Positions 20,045-60,556 of a DNA stretch of 64,000 bases are shown in pieces (position 1 is the first letter of the stretch; every line of letters begins with the position of its first letter). The notes under the pieces are model-generated. The model saw nothing but the letters and a program-made list of their open reading frames with translations. It was not told where the DNA came from and did no database searches. The stretch covers positions 930,001-994,000 of the forward strand of contig JAKSGN010000007.1 in assembly GCA_024180945.1 (NCBI GenBank). The letters are read 5' to 3'. The position numbers and the translations under genes were made by a program. The stretch is from Macrophomina tecta. Its lineage: Eukaryota > Ascomycota > Dothideomycetes > Botryosphaeriales > Botryosphaeriaceae.

Positions 20045-20764
20045 CGAGCGGGCCTCTGCCTCTAAGAATCTAAATACTAAAAAGAAAGAAAACCTATTAA
20101 AGAATTTTCTTAAATAGATATAAGAAGAGAGTAAAAGTAAGTTAAATATATAATAAAATTAAGTACTACGTACGAAGGCCGTATTACTAATAATATACTA
20201 AATTATTATTAAAGTTAACTATAAAGGTTAAAGCTATCTAAAGAGTATAGTTTATATATAGATAGAAAAGTATCTATAATCTAGTATTACTAGATATCGC
20301 CGTGGCTATACTAGGCGACTATTACTCTATATAGTCTAGGCTCTTAAGGGCGATATATAGGTCTATAAAAAAAGATTATATACTAAGCTATATAATACGA
20401 TTTTTTTAAATAGAGTCTCTTTTAAAGCTTTTCTATCTTTCTTTCTATACTCCCGTAAAGGCTATACTATAATACTATTTTCCCCTTTAGAGATCTTTAG
20501 CCTAAAGATTCTTTTATTTATATATATCTTTCTATAGACCTCTTATCTTTCTTTCTCTATCTATAAGTTTTTATTATAATTTTAAAACGTTTCTATTCTA
20601 ATAATTCCGAGGTTATTTCTTATTTAACTAAGTAATATTATTCTACTCTTTCTTATAAATAATAACTTTACGATATTCTTTTAAATAGGGTAGAGATAGT
20701 TTTCTATACTAACTATTTAGAGTACGAGTCTAAATATATAGTATTACTAAATAATTCTAAGGTC
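20045..20764 (-). mobile_element. Gypsy-B-family 3' LTR remnant between the two satellite blocks
   Basis: Begins CGAGCGGGCCTCTGCCTCTA (LTR 3' end, reverse) and runs to GGCTATACTATAATAC near 20470, followed by a polypurine stub and a piece equivalent to the antisense-frame leader of the gypsy elements. The same arrangement precedes block 1 at 11180-11864. Confidence 0.55.
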
Positions 20765-21760
20765 TACGCGGCTTACCTAATACTACTATTAGGAGAATAA
20801 GTACTTAATTTCTTACTAAAACGCCGGGTCTTAGCGCCTCTTCGCTTAGAAATCGGGTACCCGATTCTCGTCGCGAAATTTTTAAATTTACTCGAACGGG
20901 AGCGTAGAGCGCCTTAACTACTCTATTCTAGGGTACTTCGTCGCGCGACGAAAATGCCTTATGCACCATAATTTAAAAGAAAATTTACTTATATAGAAAA
21001 GAGTAGTAGTTCCTACTATTACTCCGAAGAAGAAAAGGGGGGAGAAAAAAGTATTTTATTACGCGATAAAATATTTAGCGACTAATAAAGATAAATTTAC
21101 TTAGACGAGAAGAATAGTAGTTATTTTTCCCCTCGCTAAGAGTACTTCGTCGTGCGATAAAATATTCGACGCGCAAGAAAGAAAATTTACTTAAATAAAA
21201 AGAGAATAGTAGTCTACGCTATCGCTAGGGGGGTATTTCGTCGCGCGACGAAATATTCTACGTATCTAGAGAAAAATTTATTTAAACGAAAAGAGTAGCT
21301 ATCTTTACCCTCGCTAGAAAGAAAAGGGAAAGGAGAAAATATTTAGTCACGTAATAAAATATTCTATGTATATAAGTTAAAGAAAAATTTACTTAGATAA
21401 AAAGAGTAGTAGTCCTTATCGTCGCCGGGCGTAGTTCGTCGCGCGATAAAATATTTAATTCTACAAGTTAGACGAAACTTCGCTTACCTAAAAATATAGA
21501 TAATATAAGTTATAGCCGCGAAGAATATTTTATCGCGCGACGAAAATACTTAGTTATATAATATTTATATTTTGTCGCAAAATAAAAGCTCGAAGGGTAA
21601 AAAATATATAGGTAAAGCGGTATATATCTTACGACTATATAGCTTTACTAGCTTATAAAGAGCGCGTAGCCTATATATATTATATAATTAAAGCTAAGAT
21701 GTGTGCATTTATTTATCTAAGATAATATTAGGCTTAGCGTTTTAGTAGATATCGCCCTCT
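20765..21760. repeat. Palindrome-rich satellite, copy 2
   Basis: Uninterrupted, less mutated copy. Palindromes TTCGTCGCGCGACGAA and variants lie near 20937, 21055, 21145, 21235, 21345, 21425 and 21525, about 80-115 bp apart, each associated with an AAATTTACTT core. The palindrome keeps CG dinucleotides while surrounding bases vary. Confidence 0.7.
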
Positions 21761-29900: not shown

Positions 29901-30847
29901 TTTCTTAGAATAATTCTTAGTAATTACGGGTTACTAGAAGAGCTCGTGTTAGATAGAGATCGGCTATTTATATTCTAATTCTAGTAGACTCTTACCCGCT
30001 AGCTTAGAGCTAAGCACAAGCTCTTAACTATAGCACACCCTTAAATAGACGGATAGACAGAACGGACGAATTAGACGCTAGAATAATATCTACGCTACTA
30101 CCTTAACTACGCGTAAGATAACTAGGTTGAGCTACTACCGCTTATATAGTTCGCGTATAATAGCTCGAAAGCGTTAGCTATATAAGAATCCCCATTCTAC
30201 GCTAACTACGGTTATAAGCTCATAGCTTATAAAGAGCTAATACTAAGCGAATTCCTAGCCTAAAAAGGAATCCTTAAAGCAGACTAGCTAAAGGCACTCT
30301 ACGAATAACTATACCTAGACCTCGAGTTCGTAGCCCTATAAATGGGCAGATACTACAATAGACGGTACTAGGAGGCACCAAAGCTAAAGAAAGGGGACAA
30401 AGTTTACTTCCTTAGAAAAAATATTAAGACAAAACGGCCAAACAATAAATTAGACTTTAAGAAAATCGGACCGTTCGAAATTGAAGAATAGATTAGAAAG
30501 GTTAATTTCCGCCTTAGATTACCAAACACTATGCGGATATACCCTATATTTCACGTCTTACTCCTCGAACTGGCACCGGAAAACGCCACGCCATTACGCT
30601 AAACGGAAGAAATGCTACCGGAAAATCCAAACGCCGACGAAAATATAAACTAGGACGTGGAATAGGTCTTAGATAGCGGCTATATTAACGGTTAGTTCCG
30701 ATACCTCCTTAAATGGAAAGGAGACTGGGATAATACCTAGAAACTACCGGAACTATGCGACTGTTAAGAACTTATTAATAAGTTCTATCGCTGAAACCTA
30801 GATCGACTAACACCGCCGACTCGTCGTATACGAAGGACCCGAAATTA
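26990..30847 (+). pseudogene. Gypsy A1 Pol: protease, RT, RNase H, integrase, chromodomain
   Basis: In order: protease active site DSG (27043-27051, MIDSGV); reverse transcriptase with [30 protein letters not shown] and the catalytic YLDD (28378-28389); RNase H (AYYLRK, DKELLAIV); integrase with an N-terminal zinc-binding region (29560-29690) and a core starting SLDFITDLPK (about 29753); and a C-terminal chromodomain (VLDSGYI, FRYLLKWKGDWDNT, about 30655-30750). Chromodomains steer chromovirus insertion to heterochromatin, which fits the location. A one-base deletion near 29709 shifts the frame just before the integrase core, and many TAG/TAA stops are present. It cannot be expressed intact. 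Confidence 0.85.
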
Positions 30848-30873
30848 AAATTAATAAACGGGGACAACCGCGC

Positions 30874-31518
30874 CTAATTAACTAGACTGGAGCCCTCGGG
30901 AGGCGTAGAACCCGAACCAACGCTAGGAGACCTAATAGACTGGAACGACTCCACAACGATATCAGCTGAGGCATCGCTACGTAAACGCTTCGACGATCGC
31001 TCCTCCTTAGTATTTTTAGGGTTAGAGGTATTCCTAGCCTCTAACGCTTCTAACTTTCTAAGCACATCGATCGCGTCCGACTTACGCTGTAATATTAGGG
31101 TAGCACGACGCTTAAGTAACTCCTACTGTTTTTTGGTACGAGAAAGACTAGAGGCCGCCTTTTAAAGCTAATTCTCGAAAGTAGCGCGTTCCGAGCGCGC
31201 CTTGTCTAAGGCACGACGAAGACGCTTAACTAGAGAAAGGGTTAGTAGACTAGCAAAACCACTAAAGAAGAACTAATAATTAGAGTTCTTAAGGCCGCTA
31301 GTATTATAACTAGCGCGCCCGGTACGGCAACATTCGCTATAACGAGAAAAACCTAAGGCCACCCGGTATATTACCTTAGGCTTCTTAGTCTTTTGCTGGG
31401 CGTTTAGAAGCAAACACTGCGAATAAGAAACAAATATCGCGATACCTAGTAAATTAATCTTCGCACCTAGAGACTTACGCTTAGTCTTCTATAAATCGCG
31501 CTTTCGTTTCGGAGGCAT
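30874..31518 (-). pseudogene. Antisense Cys-rich/coiled-coil frame of gypsy A1
   Basis: A minus-strand frame starts at ATG 31518 (MPPKRKRDL), about 105 bp from the 3' LTR, and ends at TAG 30874-30876, 27 bp after the end of pol, tail to tail. It has 215 codons with five TAG/TAA breaks. It contains two clusters of Cys or of Tyr where TGT/TGC to TAT/TAC would have removed Cys (YSQCLLLNA, then SRYSECCRTGRASY), a basic and helical middle (KRLRRALDKARSERATFEN), and a tail with SIRSPSVGSGSTPPEG ending LVN. The same tail occurs in A2. Element B has a frame at the same place with a perfect Zn2Cys6 spacing. So it looks like an element-encoded DNA-binding or regulatory protein; function is inferred. 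Confidence 0.65.
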
Positions 31519-33009
31519 GGTGGGAGGCTTATAGTAGAAAAAGAAAACAAGAAAACGAAGAAAGCCTAAGATATAAACGAATAAATAAATCTTCGGGCCG
31601 AAGATCCTTAAGAGGGGGGATAGTATTACGAACCCCAGGGCACAAGGACTTTATAACCCCACGGGCAGAAAGCCCGCACGGGAAAAGGCACCGCAAGGGC
31701 TAGAAACCTATAAGGACGGCAGAGCCGCACTACTAGTACGCCCGTACGGGAAAACCAGCCCCAAGGGAAGACGGCGCGTACGGGCCTAGGTAAGGTAGTA
31801 ATAGAAGCCCGCACGGGAATAACGCCCACGCGGCATAGTAAGACCACGGGAACACTAACTAGGTTAAACTCCCGTAGGGGAAGAACGCCCACAAGGGAGA
31901 AATTACGGATTCCGGAAACTAGCTTCGGGCTAAGAGGAACGGACGGGATAAAGTCGGATAACTTATACAGTCTAAGGGACGATGGTCTGGCGGTAGAATA
32001 CTCCCTTAACTAATATAGAAGTCGGATTCCAGGAAACGGGCTTTAGCGCCCGAGTTACGTGGGACCTATAGGGCCCACCTGGATTAACCTAATCTAAGAT
32101 TAACGATCTAATACTATTGATCCAGCTGCTTTAATCTAGCTATATCGATCTAGATTGCTATAATTCTCCTATAGTATATAGATACACTTATTAGATAGTA
32201 CTTTAACCTTTATAGTTAACTTAAAGTTCCAATACAACCCTATTGGAGGTAATAAGCCTAACGCGCACCGCGCACCGATATATTACGTAATTACTATCGT
32301 TGTTCTAATTCTTTACCCTTCTCTTATTCTTTAAGGTAAACCCTTTAGCTACCTGACCCTGCTAGGCGATTCCAAAGCCTAGTGGAAGAGGCCGCCGTTA
32401 TAGGTATAGCTCTTAAACTTCTAATTCTTTTATACTACGGGGGTTATTAGACTTAAGAGTTATACTAGACTAAACTAATTTTACGCTAGCGTCGATAATC
32501 GTTTGCCGCAATAGCGTTATATAGTAGTAGAAATAAAGAGTAAGAGCTAAGAAATACTAAATTAACTCTAAATTTACCTACGCGGAAAAATATATTTCTA
32601 TAGTAGTCCCGGGGAGTATTTTATCGCGCGATAAAATATATAGGTAAAGCTATGCTTTATAACTAAGTAAATTTCGTCGTACGATCAAATAGAGTTAATC
32701 GTGCATAGATAGAAATACGACTTATATAGTAGACCTATAATACTACTTATTAGAAAAATATACTATATAAAGTAGAATAGCTAGTTATATAAGATATATA
32801 TTAGCTAGACGTTCTTTCTATAGTATAGCCTTCTATTTACTACTTCGCTCTTACTATAAGTCTTCTAGAGCTAACTTAGCGGGATAGCTCTTTCTACTCT
32901 ATTACCCTACCGCCTAGCCTAGCGCTAGCGTATAAGTAGGTAACTTCCTACCCTACCCTTATTTAGAACGAGGAGTAGATAATTCTTATTTATAAGCCCT
33001 ATAAATACG

Positions 33010-34240: not shown

Positions 34241-34909
34241 ATATTATCTAAATCCCGAAAGCGTAAGCGTCCTGCCTAGCGTGCTAAATATTTAGTTCTA
34301 GGCGATAAGATTAATCGAGACGGTTTCGCGATATCTCTTCTTTATTCTTCTTATCTTCTTACTAACGCTAGTAAAGACGAGTTAGATCCTTCTTTTATAT
34401 CTTATAAGATAGATAGGGTTTACGCCTATTATAGAAAGTATACTCGCTAGGGAAAATCTACTTATAATACTAGTAGTTTAGATAATTCTAATTATAAGTT
34501 TTTCCTTTCTAGTCTACCTCTTATCTAACTATCTCTCTTAGTTCTCCGCGTTCATTAGGCCTTATTAAAGGTCGAGCGGGACAAGTAGAAGGCGCGTTAA
34601 GAGTTACGTACTTCTATAGCTCGTTTAGACCGTGTGGAAAAGCAACGGGAACTATTACGTCGCCGGGCTAACCTAATAATTTCCCAGAAGGTTTAGACGG
34701 TAGAGGAGCTTAAAGAGCTAGATCGTCTTAAGTCGGCTCGCGAGGCTAGAGAGCCCGTTAACCCTAAAAATACCGAGGCGGGGAGATCGTTAAAGCGTTT
34801 ACGTGGCGAGGCCTTAGCTAATACCGCTACGGGTCTATTCTAGTCTATTAGGTCTCCTGGGGCTGGCTCTAGTGCTACGCCGTCCGAGGGTTTCGAGCTA
34901 GTAAATTAG
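34241..34909 (+). pseudogene. Antisense Cys-rich/coiled-coil frame of gypsy A2
   Basis: Lies in the same place as the A1 antisense frame, about 100 bp from the 3' LTR, reading away from it. One frame of 223 codons ends GFELVN-TAG at 34907-34909; the start codon appears as ATA (ATG mutated). It contains YSSYLLTNASK and VYAYYRKYTR, where Tyr codons stand at expected Cys positions, GKSTYNTSSLDNSNY (compare ASYNTSGLKNSNY in A1), a charged helical segment (LDRVEKQRELLRRRANL, EELKELDRLKSAREARE), NPKNTEAGRSLKRLR and SIRSPGAGSSATPSEG. Conservation with A1 of protein-like features in a frame antisense to the element argues that it was once a real gene. Confidence 0.65.
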
Positions 34910-34949
34910 GTGCGGTAGTCTTCGTTTCCTAACTTTAATTTTAGGTCCT

Positions 34950-37900
34950 TTATATATAACGAGTCGGCGGTATTAGTCGATCTAGGTTTCGGCAATAGAA
35001 CTTATTAATAAGTTCTTAATAATCGTAGAGTTCTGGTAGTTTCTAGATATTATCCTAGTCTCCCTTCTATTTAAGGAGATATCTAAATTAACTATTAATA
35101 TAGCTACTATCTAGGACTTATTCTACGTTCTAGTCTTTATTTTTATCGGTGTCTAGATTTTCTGGTATAATTTCCTCTATTTAGCGTAGTAGTGTAGCGT
35201 CTTAAGGTGCTAGTTTAAGTAGGGCGATATAAAATACTAGGTATATCCATATAGTATCTAGTAATTTAAGGCAGAAATTAACCTTTCCGATTTATTCTTC
35301 GATTTCGAAGAAACCGACTTTTTTAAAGTCTAATTTTTTACTTAGTCGGTCGTTCTTTTTTCGTTTAAAATTTTTACTAAGGAGATAAACTTTATTCTTT
35401 CTTTTAAGCTTTAGTGCCTCCTAGTACCGTCTATTATAATATTTACCTATTTATAGGGCTACGAATTCGAGGTCTAGGTATAGTTATACGTAGAGTGCCT
35501 TTAGCTAGTCTACTTTAAGGATTTCTTTTTAGGCTAATAACTCGCTTAGTATCGGATATCTATAGACTATTAGCTCGTACCCGTAGTTAGCGTAGAACGG
35601 GGATTCTTATATAGCGGATGCCTTAGAGCTATTATACGCGAACTATACGAGCGGTAGTAGCTCTACCTAATTATCTTACGCGTAGTTAAGGTAGTAGCGT
35701 AGATATTATTCTAGCGTCTAATTCGTCCGTTCCGTCTATCCATCTATCTAAGGGTGCACCGTAGTTAAGAGCTTATATTTAGCTCTAAGCTATCGAGTAA
35801 GGCTTTACTAAAATTAGAATATAAATAGTCGATTCTTATCTAATACGAGCTCTTCTAGTAACCCGTAATTACTAAAAATTATTCTTAGGAATATATAGGC
35901 GAGTTCTTCCGTATTTACTAATTTAAGGTATAGCAAGTAGTATACGTACTTTATTATTCTATTAATAATAACTAGGATCGAGTTATACTTAACCTTAGTA
36001 AGCGGTTCTCTTAACTTAGATAGGTCCGTAATAAAGTCTAGCGAGATAGATTACTAAGGGTACTTTAGTACCGGTAGTAGCTAAAGTAATTCGTAAGGTA
36101 TATATCTCGCGGCCTTACTTCTAATATAAAGGTCGTATTATAAGATTACCCGTTAAACGGTTCTTCTAAGCCCTAGAAAATAGTAGCTTCTTATAATTCG
36201 CTCTACTATCTTATCTATTCCTTAATAACCGTGTACTAGGGCTTCGTATATATCTTTTACGAGCTCTTCCCGTAATTTAACTAGGACGTAGACTAATCCT
36301 AAAAATAGAATTATACCGTCTACGTTTTTAGTTACTTAGGGGTCGTTTTCGAGTTCTCCGATTTCTTAAGCTATTATATTATCTACGTAGGCTTCTTGGA
36401 TCTTACGCTCCTATTCATTACTTTCGAGGCATATTACTAAGGCGAGTAGTTTAACTAGAATAAGCGAGTTATCTAGTCCTTCTTAGAGCTATATCTATTC
36501 GATACTATAAATAGCGGTGATCTAGCGGCTACGGCTAGCGGGTATAAAAGACCCGTCTTCCTACGTATTAAGTATTGTAGGTTATAGACCTAGCTTTTCT
36601 TCGATATAGTCGGCTCGTCTACTTAGCGCGTCTACGCGAGCGTTTTTAGATTCCTTTCTATAGATAATCTTTATATCGTATAACGCTAGTTCTTCGGCCT
36701 ATCTAACCTATCGTCAATTTAATTCCTTAGTAGTAGTGAAGTGCGATAGGTTCTTATAGTTATAGTATACTATAATTTAGTATTTAGCCCCTTCGAGGTA
36801 GTATCTCTACTCTTTAAAGGCCGTAATAATAGCTAGGAGCTTCTTATTGTAGACGTCGTAATTCTTCTCAGGGCCTATTATCTTTCTTAAATAGAAGGTG
36901 ATGGGGTATAGTCTACCTTACTCGTCTAGCTAGCTAAGAACTACTCCTATAGCGTAGTCGGAGGCATTAGTTTCGACTGTAATAAGTAGATCGGGGTTAT
37001 AGATACTTAAAACCGGGGCCTTCGTAAATATACGTTTTAGTAAGTTAAAGGCTATTTATTACCTTTCTCTTTATACGAACCTATATTTCTTTTTTATTAG
37101 GTCTATAAGAGATATAGACACCTTCGCGTAGTTTAGAATAAACTTCCGGTAAAAGTTAGTAAATCCTAGAAAAGATTACACTTCTTTAATGGTCTTTAGC
37201 GTGGGCTAGTCTCTTATAGCGTCTAGTTTTTTATCGTCCATACTAATATATCTAGGGGTAATAATAAACCCGAGGTATTCTATCTTCTACGTGTACTATT
37301 CGCTCTTTTCCGGGGCTACTTAGAGGTTTCGTTTATCTAATACCTATAGGACTTTTCTTATATACTCGGTATATTCCTCGAGCGTCTCCGAGTATATTAG
37401 GATATTATCCAGGTAAGCCAAAGCGAATATATCTAAATACGGACGTAGTATATTATTAACTAAGCTCTAGAAGGTAGCTAGTATGTTAGTAAGCCTAAAG
37501 GGTATTACTATATACTCGTAGTATCTAAATCTTATTTAAAACGCCGTTTTCTATTCTTTACCTTCTTTAATACGGACTAGGTGGTAGCCTTCTCTAAGGT
37601 TTAGCTTAGTAAAATACTTAGCGTTACGGAGTTTATCTTATAGCTCGTCGGTACGAGGTAAGGAGTACCGGTTTTTAACGATAATATCGTTTAGTTGTCT
37701 ATAGTTAATACAAAGGCGTAGTTTACTATTTTTCTTTAGAATAAATAGAATAGAATAACTAGCTGGTAATAATAACGGGTGTATATATCCTCGTTTTAGA
37801 TTCTTTTTAATATACTTTCTTAAGGCCTCTGCCTCTTTCTCTAAAAGCGAGTATATAGGCTTAAACGCGGGTTACGTTCCGGGTATTAGGGGTATCTCGT

Positions 37901-50947: not shown

Positions 50948-52808
50948 ACGTACTTCATAAGCGAATTAGTCACATAAGCGAATTAGTCGCATATGCCAAG
51001 ACCCCCACTAAACATCTCACCCATCTATCCTCATCGCCACCATGCCCGTAATTTCGAAGATCCAAGACTGTACGCGAGAAGAAAGAATCGACTACGCTAT
51101 ACACGCGTTACGAAACAACCAAATCTCAAGCATTAAAGAAGCGTCGCGTGTATATCACGTAAATTACGAAACACTTCGACGCCGCCTCCAAGGTCACCCT
51201 CCACGCGCCGAAACCGTCGCAAACGGCAGAAACCTTGACGACGATAAAGAACAGACATTAAACGAGTGGATATTAGATCTTACTGCCTGCGGTTATCCCC
51301 CTCGCAAGTGGATGGTCGAAGACACAGCCAATATGCTACGTCGACTACGGGATAAGCCACCGGTCGGTAAATATTGGGTGGACAACTACGTTAAACGTAC
51401 CCCTAAAGTGCGAATTGCATAGAGCAAGAAATACGACTACTAAAGAGCAAAACAGGAGGATCCTAAGGTAATTAATAAGTATTTTCGGCTCCTTAAGAAT
51501 ATAGCGAACAAGCATAGCATCCAAGATAACGATATCTATAATATAAACGAGATAGGCTTCCTAAGAGGTAATATTAGTACAGCCAAAGTTATAACGGCAG
51601 CAGATGGCCCTAAATACTACATTCAGCCTAGCGATCGTGACTAGATAACGGTTATTAAGTGCATAAACGCAGCCAAACGCCGTATACTAGCCATGGTTAT
51701 CGCTAAAGGGAAGGTGTTCCAGAACATCTAGTTTAGTAAGGACGCAGGCCTTCCAGATAACTAGATAATCGCCTATAGCGAAACCGGATAGTCTAATAAC
51801 AGATTAGACTATATATAGCTTACAGAGATGTTTAATCCTTATACAAAGCAACACACTAAAGGCATCAAACGACTCCTTATTATAGATAGACATAGCAGCC
51901 ACTATTTAGAGCCATTCGAGACTTATATAAGTAAAAACAACATTATCCCATTATAGCTACCCTCACATTCTTCGCATATCCTACAACCATTGGATGTCGC
52001 TTGCTTTAGCGCGGTTAAGAGGCGCTATCGTCGAGGGATAGAGATGTTGGCCCGTAATAGCCAGAACCACGTTAATATGGACGACTTTCTTTAAATCTAC
52101 GCTGCTGCTCGTCTTAAAGCGCTAAGTAACAGTAATATTAAAAGCGCCTTTAGAGCTACCGGCATTTTTCCATTTAATCCTATGGAGGTGCTTAATAGAT
52201 TAGGTGCGATCAACGTTCTATTACCGCCCGCCGAGCCCTGTTCTTCCTTAACGAATTCGGTGACCAATACACCCAAAACGGTGCGCTAGATTGAGAAGCA
52301 GCAGAGAGCTATAAGACGTCGACAATATAAGCTTAAATAACGATCCGCGTTACCTACGATAGTGGCAATAAAAAAAATAGCAAAGAGTGCTAAGTTAGCG
52401 TTACAAGCGACAGCAATCATAGTAGAGCAACTCGAGCGTGCGCAGGCTCGCAATACGAAAGTAGTTAAAAAGCGCAATATTAAAGTTAAGTATATTACTT
52501 AAAGAGAGAGTCTTACACTTAAAGAGATAGTTAAGCTATCATAGAAGCCTATAGCACCTCTAGAAGCTGCTTAAAGTGAGGATAGTAATACGACACCGAA
52601 GGCTTCAAGTCGAGCTCCGTACCGCTGCAGGAGGTGTATATTAACTAGGTATAACTTAAGAACTTGCCCAGCACTCAAGAACCGTTACGCAATATAATTA
52701 TTATATAAAATTAGCTGGTAGTGTTATAATGTAAGAAGATAGTAGTGTTGTCCGTGGTACTAAGAAATACCCGACTAATTCGCTTATACGACTAATTCGC
52801 TTATAAAG
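50948..52808 (+). mobile_element. pogo-like DNA transposon P3, 3' TIR split by gypsy B
   Basis: The 5' end starts ACGTACTTCATAAGCG and contains two ATAAGCGAATTAGTC units; the 3' end mirrors it (GACTAATTCGCTTATA twice). TA precedes it at 50946-50947. Its last five bases, TACGT, lie at 60550-60554, followed by TA at 60555-60556, because gypsy B inserted in the 3' TIR. Without that insertion it is 1866 bp, as long as P1 and P2. Confidence 0.85.
51042..52697 (+). pseudogene. P3 transposase, RIP-inactivated
   Basis: A 552-codon frame with about fourteen TAG/TAA stops; the first 126 codons are open (MPVISKIQDCTREERIDYAI). Colinear with P2: HTH region (EASRVYHVNYETLRRRLQG), TACGYPPRKWMVEDTANML, core with YNINEIGF (first catalytic Asp codon GAC now AAC), LLIIDRHSSH (Gly of DGH changed to Arg), SSHILQPLDVA (third Asp kept), FRATGIFPFNP, and a damaged C-terminal knuckle RCRRC...LRTC. 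So both nonsense and active-site changes inactivate it. The N-terminus and TIR differ from P1 and P2, making it a distinct family. Confidence 0.8.
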
Positions 52809-53439
52809 TATTACGGCGCAGCCTTCACAGGGTAGGGGACAGGCGGAATAAGAAAATAAAGCGGGGCGCAGATACGCGCCGCAGAAAGATCCACAAAAAG
52901 AGTTACGTAAATTATGTAACGCCAAGCATTAATCTATATACTCTCGCCTAGGCAAACACAGATTAAACAGATTAAACCTCTTTAATCCCTATAATCTGTT
53001 CTTTACAGAAACAGATTAATAAGATTAATACTAGATTATAGACCTTTCCTACGAGTATATAAACTATACTCCTTAGATAGCCTTAACCTTCGTGGTTAAC
53101 TTTAATAATAGAATTTAGACTCTATTAGTAACACGGCCTTCGCACGTAGTACTTAGTCTTATCGCGTATTTGACTTACTCTTACCCTCTTCTTATACCCA
53201 CTTAAGAAAAACCCCCTTAATAGGTTTTCTCCCTCTTTGGTGTTTAGATCCTTAGAGGCAGAGGCCCGCTCGTTACACTTTAACCACCATCCTTATAAGG
53301 AGAGGAAGGCTCTAAGATTAAGTCTTATTAGGTAAGATATTACCCCCTAACGAGTTTAGAAAACAGCAATAGCACTAGGATCTTAGATAGAGGTCGACCT
53401 GGCCGAGGGTTACGTTTAGGATGCCTAGGGGCTAGCTTA

Positions 53440-58200: not shown

Positions 58201-59395
58201 ACGACCTTTATATTCGAAGTAAAGCCGCAATACACGCTTCGTATAGATAACTATAACCCCTAGAAGTTCTAGAACGACTATAGTAATAGATTACGCTAGA
58301 CTTTATTATAAAACTACCTAGGTCTAGGAACCTAATTATAGGAGTTAAGTACGACTCGATCCTAGTCTTTATTAATAGACTTATAAAGTACGCACTCTTT
58401 TTACCCTACTTAGAGGTATCGAATATAGAATAGCTAGCCTATACGTTTCTCCAATATATCTTCGCGGATCGCGGAATGCCGGAAGTATTAGTCTCGGATA
58501 GAAATAAGCTAATAAGATTAGAATTTTAGTAAACACTTACGCGCTAGCTTAGAGCAAAGAATAAACTCTCTATAACGGCATACGCGTAAACCGACGGCTA
58601 GATAGAACGGATAAATCGGACTCTCGAATAATATCTCCGCTATTACATTAACTATCTATAGGATAACTAGGCTATATAGCTACCTATGGCATAATTCGCC
58701 TATAACAGCGCCAAATAAGAGTTAACTAACGTATCCCCGTTCTTTACTAACTATGGGTTTGAACTAGACGCGTATAGAGAAGCTATTCTAAGTAGAAAAT
58801 TAGCCTAGAAAGGCGTCCTTAAGGCCGAGCAGCTAAGAGGATTATATAAAGCTATTAGTCTCGACCTCGAATACGTACGAATTATAATATCTAAATACTA
58901 TAATAGACGGCACTAGGCGGCACTAAACCTTAAAAGGGAGGATAAAGTATACCTCCTTATAAAGAATATTAAATTAAAGCGACCGAGCGATAAATTAGAT
59001 TTTAAGAAAATCGGTCTATTTAAAATTGCAGAAAAACTTAGAGAAGTTACGTATCGACTTAAATTACCTAATATATAAATAAACTCTACCTTTTACGTAG
59101 TATTGCTCGAGCTAGCACTAGAAAACGCCACCATCCTAGAAACTTAAGAAGAAATTATACCAGAAAACCCTAATACCGAAGAAACCTAGTACCTAGTTAA
59201 GAAGATTCTAGACTATAAGCGGTTCGGACGTTAGCTTAAATATCTCGTTAAATAGAAAGAATACGGGAACGAGGATAACCAGTAGGTATCTAAGAACAAT
59301 ATACATCCAGATCTCGTTACAGAGTTCTATCGCCAGAACCCTAACCTCCCGCGAAAACGGAGTCGCCCTAGAAAGACGAATCCATCCACAACTTA
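55290..59395 (+). pseudogene. Gypsy B Pol
   Basis: Protease region near 55340 (ILVDN in place of a DSG/DTG site), RT with LRLYINY, LFGLTNALATF and catalytic YLDD at 57006-57017, RNase H (FYLRKFTPAELNYDT, KKLLAIVL), integrase with a zinc-binding start (about 58100-58240) and core (DFIIKLP), and a chromodomain (YLVKKILDYKRFGR...LKYLVK, about 59190-59250). The frame ends near 59395. Stops are TAG/TAA, and a short frameshift lies near 56868. Reverse transcription and integration into heterochromatin are the expected roles; the copy is dead. Confidence 0.75.
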
Positions 59396-60009
59396 GCCCT
59401 AGACGGAAACGCAATCCCAGCCACCGAATTAGGCGGAGGACCTCCAGAGCTCGAGGAACCCTTAACTACAAAAGAACTCGGGGAACGCTCCGGAGTCGGC
59501 ACGTCTTCGCTAGCTACACGTCGCCTATCGCGATCCTCCTTTTCGAGTCTTTCTAACTCCTCGATAGACGTTAGCTCGCGATTAAATATCTTCTTACGCT
59601 TCTCGTTTATTAAACTCAGCTGCTTGCGTAACCGCCGCGTACGGGCGCGCGCCGCTACCTTAGTATCTTCCGCCTCCTCTAGCTACCTCTCTAGCCGCTC
59701 TATCTCCGCGTACATCTTATCCCCTACATAAGTCAGCCAGAGAAACCACTAGAAGAAAAAAAACCTACACTCCCCACGCGTTACTACTAAGTCGCACTTG
59801 CGATTCTTCTGCAAACAACGACTGCACTTCCCGGAGTCCACGCTTATAAAACACTTAGAACCCGACGACCGACACGCGCTACAAGAAGAAGGCATCTCTC
59901 GACATTTATACGAAATAGATTCCGCCAGGGTTCGTCGACGCTCGGTGGAATCAGCAGCAGTCCTAGCCATCGTTAGTACATAACGTACGCGACCGGAAAA
60001 CACGGGCAC
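59368..60009 (-). pseudogene. Antisense Zn2Cys6 plus coiled-coil frame of gypsy B
   Basis: The minus-strand frame runs from ATG 60009 (or ATG 59970, MARTAADST) to TAG 59368-59370, 214 codons, with two TAG breaks. It overlaps the end of pol tail to tail by about 28 bp and starts 67 bp from the 3' LTR. It contains CSACRSSGSKC, then eight residues, then CSRCLQKNRKC: spacing CX2CX6CX8CX2CX6C, exactly that of the fungal Zn2Cys6 (GAL4-type) binuclear cluster. It continues with a basic and charged helical region (RTRRLRKQLSLINEKRKK, SIEELERLEKEDRDRRR), typical for dimerisation, and a Ser/Pro-rich tail. A DNA-binding regulator is inferred; antisense position equals that in gypsy A1 and A2. Confidence 0.7.
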
Positions 60010-60556
60010 ACGAGGACTTTATACCCACCAAGTCACGGAATTCTTCGGGCCGAAGAACCCTAGAAGGGGGGATAGTATTACGGCGCAGCCTTTATAGGGT
60101 AGGGGACAAGCGGAATAAGAGAATAAAGCGGGGCGCAAATACGCGCCGCAGAAAGATCCATAGAAAGAGTTATGTAAATCACGTAACGCTAAGCATTAAT
60201 CTATATGCTCTCGCCTGGGCAAACATAGATTAAATAGATTAAACCTCTTTAATCCCTATAATCTATCCTCCACAGAAACAGATTAATAAAATTAATACTA
60301 GATTATAGACCTTTCCTACGAGTATATAAACTATACTTCTTAGATAGCCTTAACCTTCGTAGTCAACTTCAACAATAGAATTTAGACTCTATTGGTAACA
60401 CGGCCTTCGCATATAGTACTTAGTCTTATCGCGTATTCGACTTACTCTTACCCTCTTCTTATACCTACTTAAGGAAAACTCCCTCGATAGGTTTTCTCCC
60501 TCTTTAGTGTTTAGATCCTTAGAGGCAGAGGCCCGCTCGTTATATAAAGTACGTTA

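Follow-up and report, generated by a model that had tools for sequence, protein, structure and literature searches.

Can a retrotransposon of a fungus carry, on the strand opposite to its own genes, a transcription factor of the kind used by its host? The question is raised by a stretch of 64,000 nucleotides (nt) from Macrophomina tecta, called the window below, which covers positions 930,001 to 994,000 of contig JAKSGN010000007.1 (C7:930001-994000) in an assembly of 54.1 Mb and 37 contigs. In the window lies a Gypsy retrotransposon, here element B, for which an earlier note proposed an antisense protein with the layout of the fungal Zn2Cys6 transcription factors. That note also named three observations that would speak against such a gene, namely intact elements without the open antisense frame, a ratio of nonsynonymous to synonymous substitution (dN/dS) near 1, and cysteines that are not conserved. 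Our analysis of the element, its relatives in the same genome and its homologues elsewhere leads us to the view, with a probability of about 0.6, that this is a genuine third gene of fungal chromoviruses, whose Zn2Cys6-type protein would bind as a dimer to a CGG-N-CCG palindrome and control its own antisense transcription.

Results

The antisense gene and its intact families

The minus strand of element B encodes at 59368-60009 the sequence CSACRSSGSKCFISVDSGKCSRCLQKNRKC, which reads exactly as the CX2CX6CX8CX2CX6C cluster claimed earlier, and the charged helical stretch said to come after it is seen as well. The gene consists of two exons and starts with the ATG at 59970. Exon 1 (59769..59970, minus strand, from the translation of B) holds a basic N-terminus and the zinc cluster (59794..59883, minus strand, coordinates by arithmetic), while exon 2 (59317..59723, minus strand) holds a coiled coil and an acidic tail, its end being computed from the list of stops and the match of family I, described below, reaching to 59320. 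Between the exons lies an intron of 45 nt, of spliceosomal type and in phase 1 (59724..59768, minus strand, GTAGGT...CTGAC...TAG). The gene seemed to be a single frame because the length of this intron is divisible by three, and the first apparent stop of the one-frame reading falls within it. Exon 2 of B has three in-frame TAG ahead of its natural end. Many Gypsy/chromodomain elements of this genome carry the gene, and what B has is a damaged version of it.

Element B is bounded by long terminal repeats (LTRs) at 52807..53275 (5') and 60074..60542 (3'), both on the plus strand, which were delimited by comparing the pair (92.5% identity over 469 nt, edges within a few bases), and the polypurine tract (PPT) AAGGGGGG stands directly before the 3' LTR. 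The end of pol with its chromodomain, damaged in B, was placed by eye in the B sense frame at approximately 59186..59340 on the plus strand; the homologous stretch of family I matches PF00385 (E 8.5e-11), and the same family has matches to Tf2-1-like SH3 and integrase p58 C-terminal domains. LTR pairs and gag/pol frames were found in the whole elements of families I-IV. The host element is a Ty3/Gypsy chromovirus, an assignment made from the LTRs, gag, and pol with a chromodomain after the integrase, reverse transcriptase lying outside the scan.

With the B protein as query, 64 pieces of the genome were matched, among them five identical exon-piece pairs free of stops, and the search with the protein of another copy in the window (A2), in which 150 of 381 candidates were scored, gave more sets without stops outside the intron. 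Altogether eight families with stop-free copies carry the gene, four of them (I-IV) within whole elements, and the other four are represented by the stop-free genes L065 (V), L073 (VI), L074 (VII) and L075 (VIII). The family I element is 7.8 kb long with an LTR pair 99.8% identical, and the corresponding identities are 100% in II, 99.6% in III and 100% in IV, each measured on one copy taken as the whole element. In family I five copies agree completely over 1.8 kb, among them L012, which is split in two pieces; near-identical copies number five in II, five in III and three in IV. The intact families thus keep the antisense frame free of stops. That the observation exceeds chance is confirmed by the many genomic copies, the stop-free copies, the conserved cysteines, the intron and the codon-position pattern.

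Some further features of these copies were noticed. The loci L009-L013 and L038-L050 are near-identical with stop-free coding exons and look recent and undamaged, the other copies in the genome being full of TAG/TAA stops. In families III (L039, C13:94501-103500) and IV (L040, C5:969501-978500) the gag frames share their length and their ends, yet the antisense genes clearly differ, as though 3' parts had been swapped between families, judged from a partial alignment. A ninth type of the antisense gene, apparently intronless and with in-frame stops, is found at L076 (C8:15660-17050); it has its own palindrome arms, ACC/GGT, with TATAAAG just 4 nt behind (for the palindrome see below).

Intron and overlap with pol

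An intron of 44-49 nt, in phase 1 and with GT..AG ends, occurs at the homologous place in all eight families, and its removal gives a full-length protein in each of them; in V-VIII the scan of candidate splice sites led to a single solution per family. The proteins of the intact families are 211-260 amino acids (aa) long, and the start of the gene is some 100 nt away from the 3' LTR. The intron is able to survive transposition because it is on the wrong strand for splicing from the sense genomic RNA. A public gene model of Macrophomina phaseolina (P0020, MPH_02168) joins the exons at the predicted junction, and the same junction appears in the database protein P0008, a single open reading frame that may come from a spliced transcript or from an intronless gene. 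These results support a conserved, intron-containing protein gene that is antisense in chromodomain Gypsy elements.

The gene had been placed between pol and the 3' LTR, which proved incorrect: in families I-IV the pol frame continues through the gene and has no stop until well within the LTR. Over the 775-925 nt between the LTR edge and the antisense stop, no stop interrupts the pol register in any of the eight families, the register of V-VIII being assumed from I-IV, and the other sense frames have 5-13 stops each over this span. Since pol stays open along the full length of the antisense gene, the two genes overlap. Given the antisense proteins and the codon use, the chance of finding no stop over exon 2 is 0.006-0.088 per family, values that are not independent as the families are related. 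Our conclusion is that pol is maintained as an open frame opposite the gene while its amino acids there drift; this perhaps keeps the pol stop near the 3' end of the RNA.

Selection on the antisense frame

Codon position 3 of the antisense frame is the most variable one in all 28 pairs of families, with pooled differences of 2519, 2408 and 3331 at the three positions. The dN/dS of the antisense gene by NG86, which takes no account of the overlap with pol, is 0.26-0.81 and below 1 in 28 of 28 pairs; caution is due in that dS is high in many pairs and that the C-terminal third of II-IV is far more alike than the remainder. Over exon 2, where pol position 2 is opposite antisense position 3, the dN/dS of the pol frame is 0.56-1.59, falling below the antisense ratio in only one of the 28 pairs (VII-VIII), and the amino acid identity is lower in the pol frame than in the antisense frame in every pair, as compared on ungapped blocks beginning in exon 2. 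Purifying selection on the antisense gene is supported by these comparisons. None of the three observations which the earlier note had named against the gene was made, as intact members have the frame open, dN/dS lies below 1 and the cysteines are conserved.

Features of the protein

The six cysteines are invariant in all eight families. The Zn2Cys6 spacing is CX2CX6CX5-12CX2CX6-8C, and the proteins of B and of families I, V, VI, VII and VIII agree with it. Exon 2 encodes a long coiled coil; the C-terminus is acidic and aromatic, the last 45 aa having a net charge of -4 to -8 and 3-6 aromatic residues. The AlphaFold2 model of homologue P0014 (pLDDT, the predicted local distance difference test score, 84.9) shows a short helix at each CXXC followed by one helix of 81 residues; compared with the zinc clusters of Lac9, Leu3 and Gal4 (1cld, 2er8, 1d66) it gives weak matches with root mean square deviations of 1.5, 1.1 and 1.9 over 32-34 residues. 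In sequence searches of the PDB, the whole family returned a coiled-coil match only and the Cys region three weak matches (E 0.073-0.59), of which two are fungal zinc-cluster proteins (CBF3 subunit B and an ethanol regulon factor) and the third is unrelated. Taken together, the protein appears to have a minimal fungal transcription-factor layout, that is, a Zn2Cys6-type cluster, a dimerising coiled coil and an acidic tail, with zinc and DNA binding predicted.

Among the matches listed, and by protein sequences alone, homologues occur in Botryosphaeria dothidea, Aplosporella prunicola, Zopfia rhizophila, a Watsoniomyces metagenome-assembled genome and many further contigs; that of Zopfia rhizophila bears the UniRef label 'Zn(2)-C6 fungal-typ...', and the nearest named relatives listed include several hypothetical proteins of Macrophomina phaseolina MS6. 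No relatives were found in the collections of viral contigs and genome contigs.

Putative promoter region and LTR units

In element B a palindrome of 17 bp, TTCTTCGG-C-CCGAAGAA, with a CGG-N-CCG core, is read from the sequence at 60041..60057 (no strand), and TATAAAG at 60017..60023 on the minus strand stands 53 nt ahead of the antisense ATG. All nine family representatives have, between PPT and ATG, the palindrome TTCGG-S-CCGAA with three symmetric base pairs added on each side (17 bp). The arms come in five versions, all of them symmetric (ATC/GAT, TCC/GGA, TTC/GAA, ACT/AGT, ACC/GGT), and the next two bases beyond them have no consistent symmetry; broken arms were seen in four PPT-linked loci (L008, L019, L022, L027), all being stop-bearing copies. 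The layout is the PPT, 6-8 nt, the palindrome, 4-14 nt, the TATA, 51-59 nt and the ATG, where the TATA is present behind the palindrome in eight of the nine families and family VII has TATTTC instead; single-base shuffles produce a TATA there by chance in 3-15% of cases for each family.

Exactly one core is present in 46 of the loci L001-L057, and 11 lack the exact core; in the four whole elements there is a single core apiece. Genome-wide, the 11-mer was counted 226 times, compared with 48 for the reversed control. Fifteen palindrome loci were cut out from contigs C1-C3, which is not a random sample, and 14 of them adjoin the PPT/LTR start. The antisense gene was found at ten of the 15 by tblastn and at two more by eye: tblastn had no match for the gene at L059, L063, L068, L069 and L070, among which L059 and L069 are damaged copies by eye and L068 is not linked to a PPT. 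Apart from these, L077 (C5:66560-68000) shows the PPT of another LTR type with palindrome arms GCT/AGC and one core base off, and tblastn did not detect the antisense gene in this region.

The LTRs themselves contain a different unit, CGG-N9-CCG, which occurs 5, 4 and 3 times in families II, III and IV versus 0.34-0.42 in shuffles, counts reached by 0, 0 and 2 of 300 shuffles each. The internal regions of 6.7-6.8 kb have it 1, 2 and 1 times in II, III and IV, and it was found neither in the LTR of family I nor in 489 nt of the family V LTR. Most sites are CACGG-N9-CCGCA-like units at 39-191 nt from the LTR start (L038, L039, L040). This lead is weakened by the sites being partly shared by three related LTRs, some stepping by 17 nt, and duplication could explain the arrays. 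As for CGG-N1-CCG, one core without matching arms was seen in the family I LTR and none in those of II-IV. Binding to the CGG-N9-CCG units, if it takes place, would tie the protein to the promoter of the sense strand in II-IV, which is a lead only.

Discussion

CGG inverted repeats are common as sites of Zn2Cys6 proteins, and in view of the palindrome and its surroundings autoregulation is the leading mechanism. What we infer as the best explanation of the sequences is an element-borne autoregulator, of which expression, binding and regulation are predictions: the protein would be made from its own TATA promoter beside the 3' LTR, the dimer would bind the CGG-N-CCG palindrome just upstream of the TATA, and antisense transcription would be controlled in trans by its own product across many copies. 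In families II-IV the protein may act also on the CGG-N9-CCG units in the LTR. A more ambitious picture, which we offer tentatively and would not call probable, is that a widespread group of ascomycete chromoviruses possesses its own Gal4-like spliced factor, wholly antisense to a pol kept stop-free, which binds both the covarying palindrome and the LTR arrays of II-IV, every copy thereby entering a trans circuit with a logic like that of the retroviral gene HBZ discussed below.

Several results weigh against such a reading of the protein. The first loop between the cysteines has 11, 11 and 15 residues in families II, III and IV, which thereby depart from the Zn2Cys6 spacing, and the fold search of the family III type found no zinc-cluster match, leaving the fold of this subgroup unconfirmed. 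In the profile search which the earlier note had proposed, PF00172 scores of 11.8, 12.7 and 13.9 bits were obtained in comparison with a gathering cutoff of 21 bits, the best E among 28 homologues was 6.4e-4, and the scan of the own genome, with 150 of 323 candidates scored, has none of the nine family loci among its 149 listed places. The gene is not filed as a formal member of PF00172 because the printed scores are below the cutoff. With regard to the gene structure, the Aplosporella model P0021 uses another junction by which the cluster is skipped, and P0011, P0012 and P0044 translate through the stretch at the place of the intron.

Other explanations should be weighed against this gene and its predicted circuit. 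The palindrome might be a cis element of the retrotransposon cycle, as a hairpin or in plus-strand priming by the PPT, with the protein acting on the LTR, host promoters, chromatin or integration. This would fit its position, 6-8 nt from the PPT in nine of nine families and next to the PPT/LTR start at 14 of the 15 listed sites, as well as arms that can pair in the sense RNA too and the CGG-N9-CCG units in the LTRs of II-IV; however, CGG inverted repeats are of the zinc-cluster half-site type, a TATA follows the palindrome in eight of nine families, and no PPT-linked locus of the 14 was shown to be gene-free (10 by tblastn, 2 by eye), so that we regard this explanation, the main rival to autoregulation, as rather unlikely. 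It is improbable that the antisense transcript acts as RNA, through double-stranded RNA, silencing or copy-number control, with the protein being secondary. Roles of antisense RNA are discussed for plant elements in the available text of PMC7264820, but the codon-level constraint, the conserved cysteines and the intron phase kept across families here speak for a protein.

Two further possibilities concern the origin of the frame. Zn2Cys6 genes abound in the genome (149 matches listed, 150 of 323 candidates scored), and a fragment of one might have been captured once, recently, by a single element; yet the place, strand and intron are the same in eight families with many copies, and this distribution argues against a recent one-off capture, for which we see almost no chance. 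The group of elements may, however, have captured the gene long ago, at its root. The open pol frame on the same DNA in all eight families might also suggest a shadow frame, a mere by-product of the constraint on pol, but the differences lie mostly at antisense position 3 (pol position 2 over exon 2), the pol-frame ratios are around 1, the two exons are joined by a proper intron, and homologues occur in other fungi. The codon-position, frame-ratio and intron tests, with a free position 3 and stable cysteines and intron, rule it out, and it has hardly any credit left.

The gene may be compared with known systems. Like the Gal4-type factors (PF00172), it has their Cys spacing (in B, I and V-VIII), a predicted two-helix cluster, a coiled coil and an acidic C-terminus; unlike them, it is tiny and element-borne, no middle regulatory domain of Pfam was found in it, and the first loop is expanded in II-IV. 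HBZ of human T-cell leukaemia virus type 1 (HTLV-1) is a spliced antisense gene near the 3' LTR for a nuclear regulator of DNA-binding type; it is a basic leucine zipper (bZIP) protein with a promoter within the 3' LTR of an animal retrovirus. The fungal gene resembles it in its predicted splicing, its antisense orientation and its place near the 3' LTR, and no homology is suggested. HBZ and other antisense retroviral genes are named in the accessible portions of PMC11963269 and PMC7264820.

For fungi, the literature as far as consulted already has an example in brtn, the antisense gene of Boty-like Gypsy elements from Botrytis cinerea (Zhao et al. 2011, Virology 417:248; via PMC8365987, PMC7264820, PMC4227169 and PMC5987419), likewise at the 3' end of an element with a chromodomain, and a Monilinia transcript resembles truncated Pol and BRTN alike (from a source among these four). 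By description only, the zinc cluster, intron, pol overlap and promoter palindrome found here are not reported for brtn in those parts of the sources. The earlier note knew of no described system of this kind. The general kind is known, brtn being an antisense gene of a fungal Gypsy element, and titles and abstract openings, with subscription journals largely out of reach, showed no zinc-cluster antisense gene in a retrotransposon. In plants, the class aORF-3R comprises gene23 of Grande, RIRE2, the antisense open reading frames of Retand with TRP28, and PvRetro13 (PMC7264820, PMC11963269, consulted in part). Like these, the fungal gene is antisense to gag-pol in the 3' part with many copies per family, kept in most copies and suspected to be a nuclear or DNA-binding regulator. 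The plant frames differ in having TRP28/SMC domains and plant hosts, and in being described between pol and the 3' LTR, not opposite pol; here pol is open into the LTR in I-IV and to its edge in all eight families. What is surprising in the present case is the combination of a host-type zinc-cluster factor, a conserved intron, the complete overlap with pol and a palindrome with covarying arms.

If our reading is true, one group of fungal retrotransposons possesses, in strongly compressed form, a transcription factor that belongs to a major class of the host, and a single stretch of DNA houses a gene on each strand, of which one is spliced. Antisense genes known from LTR elements (brtn, Grande, Retand), of which the function is called unknown in the sources as far as available, would also gain a concrete biochemical activity and candidate binding sites. 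For annotation it would be a warning that small hypothetical proteins labelled 'Zn(2)-C6' in fungal genomes can be transposon genes.

Other copies in the window

The frames reported earlier for A1 (30874-31518, minus strand) and A2 (34241-34909, plus strand) exist and belong to the same gene at the protein level, and the six cysteines have been lost in both. The A1 copy (30776..31518, minus strand, end approximate) is closest to the intact family IV (66% aa identity, E 5e-104 by tblastn), with a palindrome beside it at 31592, and the A2 copy, given as the span of its tblastn match (34259..35005, plus strand), is closest to the intact family II (41%, E 4e-51). Several repeat stretches of the window have a GC content down to 19-32% and look like products of repeat-induced point mutation, as judged from GC content alone. 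Within another, AT-rich repeat lies a family VI-like remnant of exon 1 (20576..20779, plus strand; tblastn 53% over 68 aa, E 2.6e-18).
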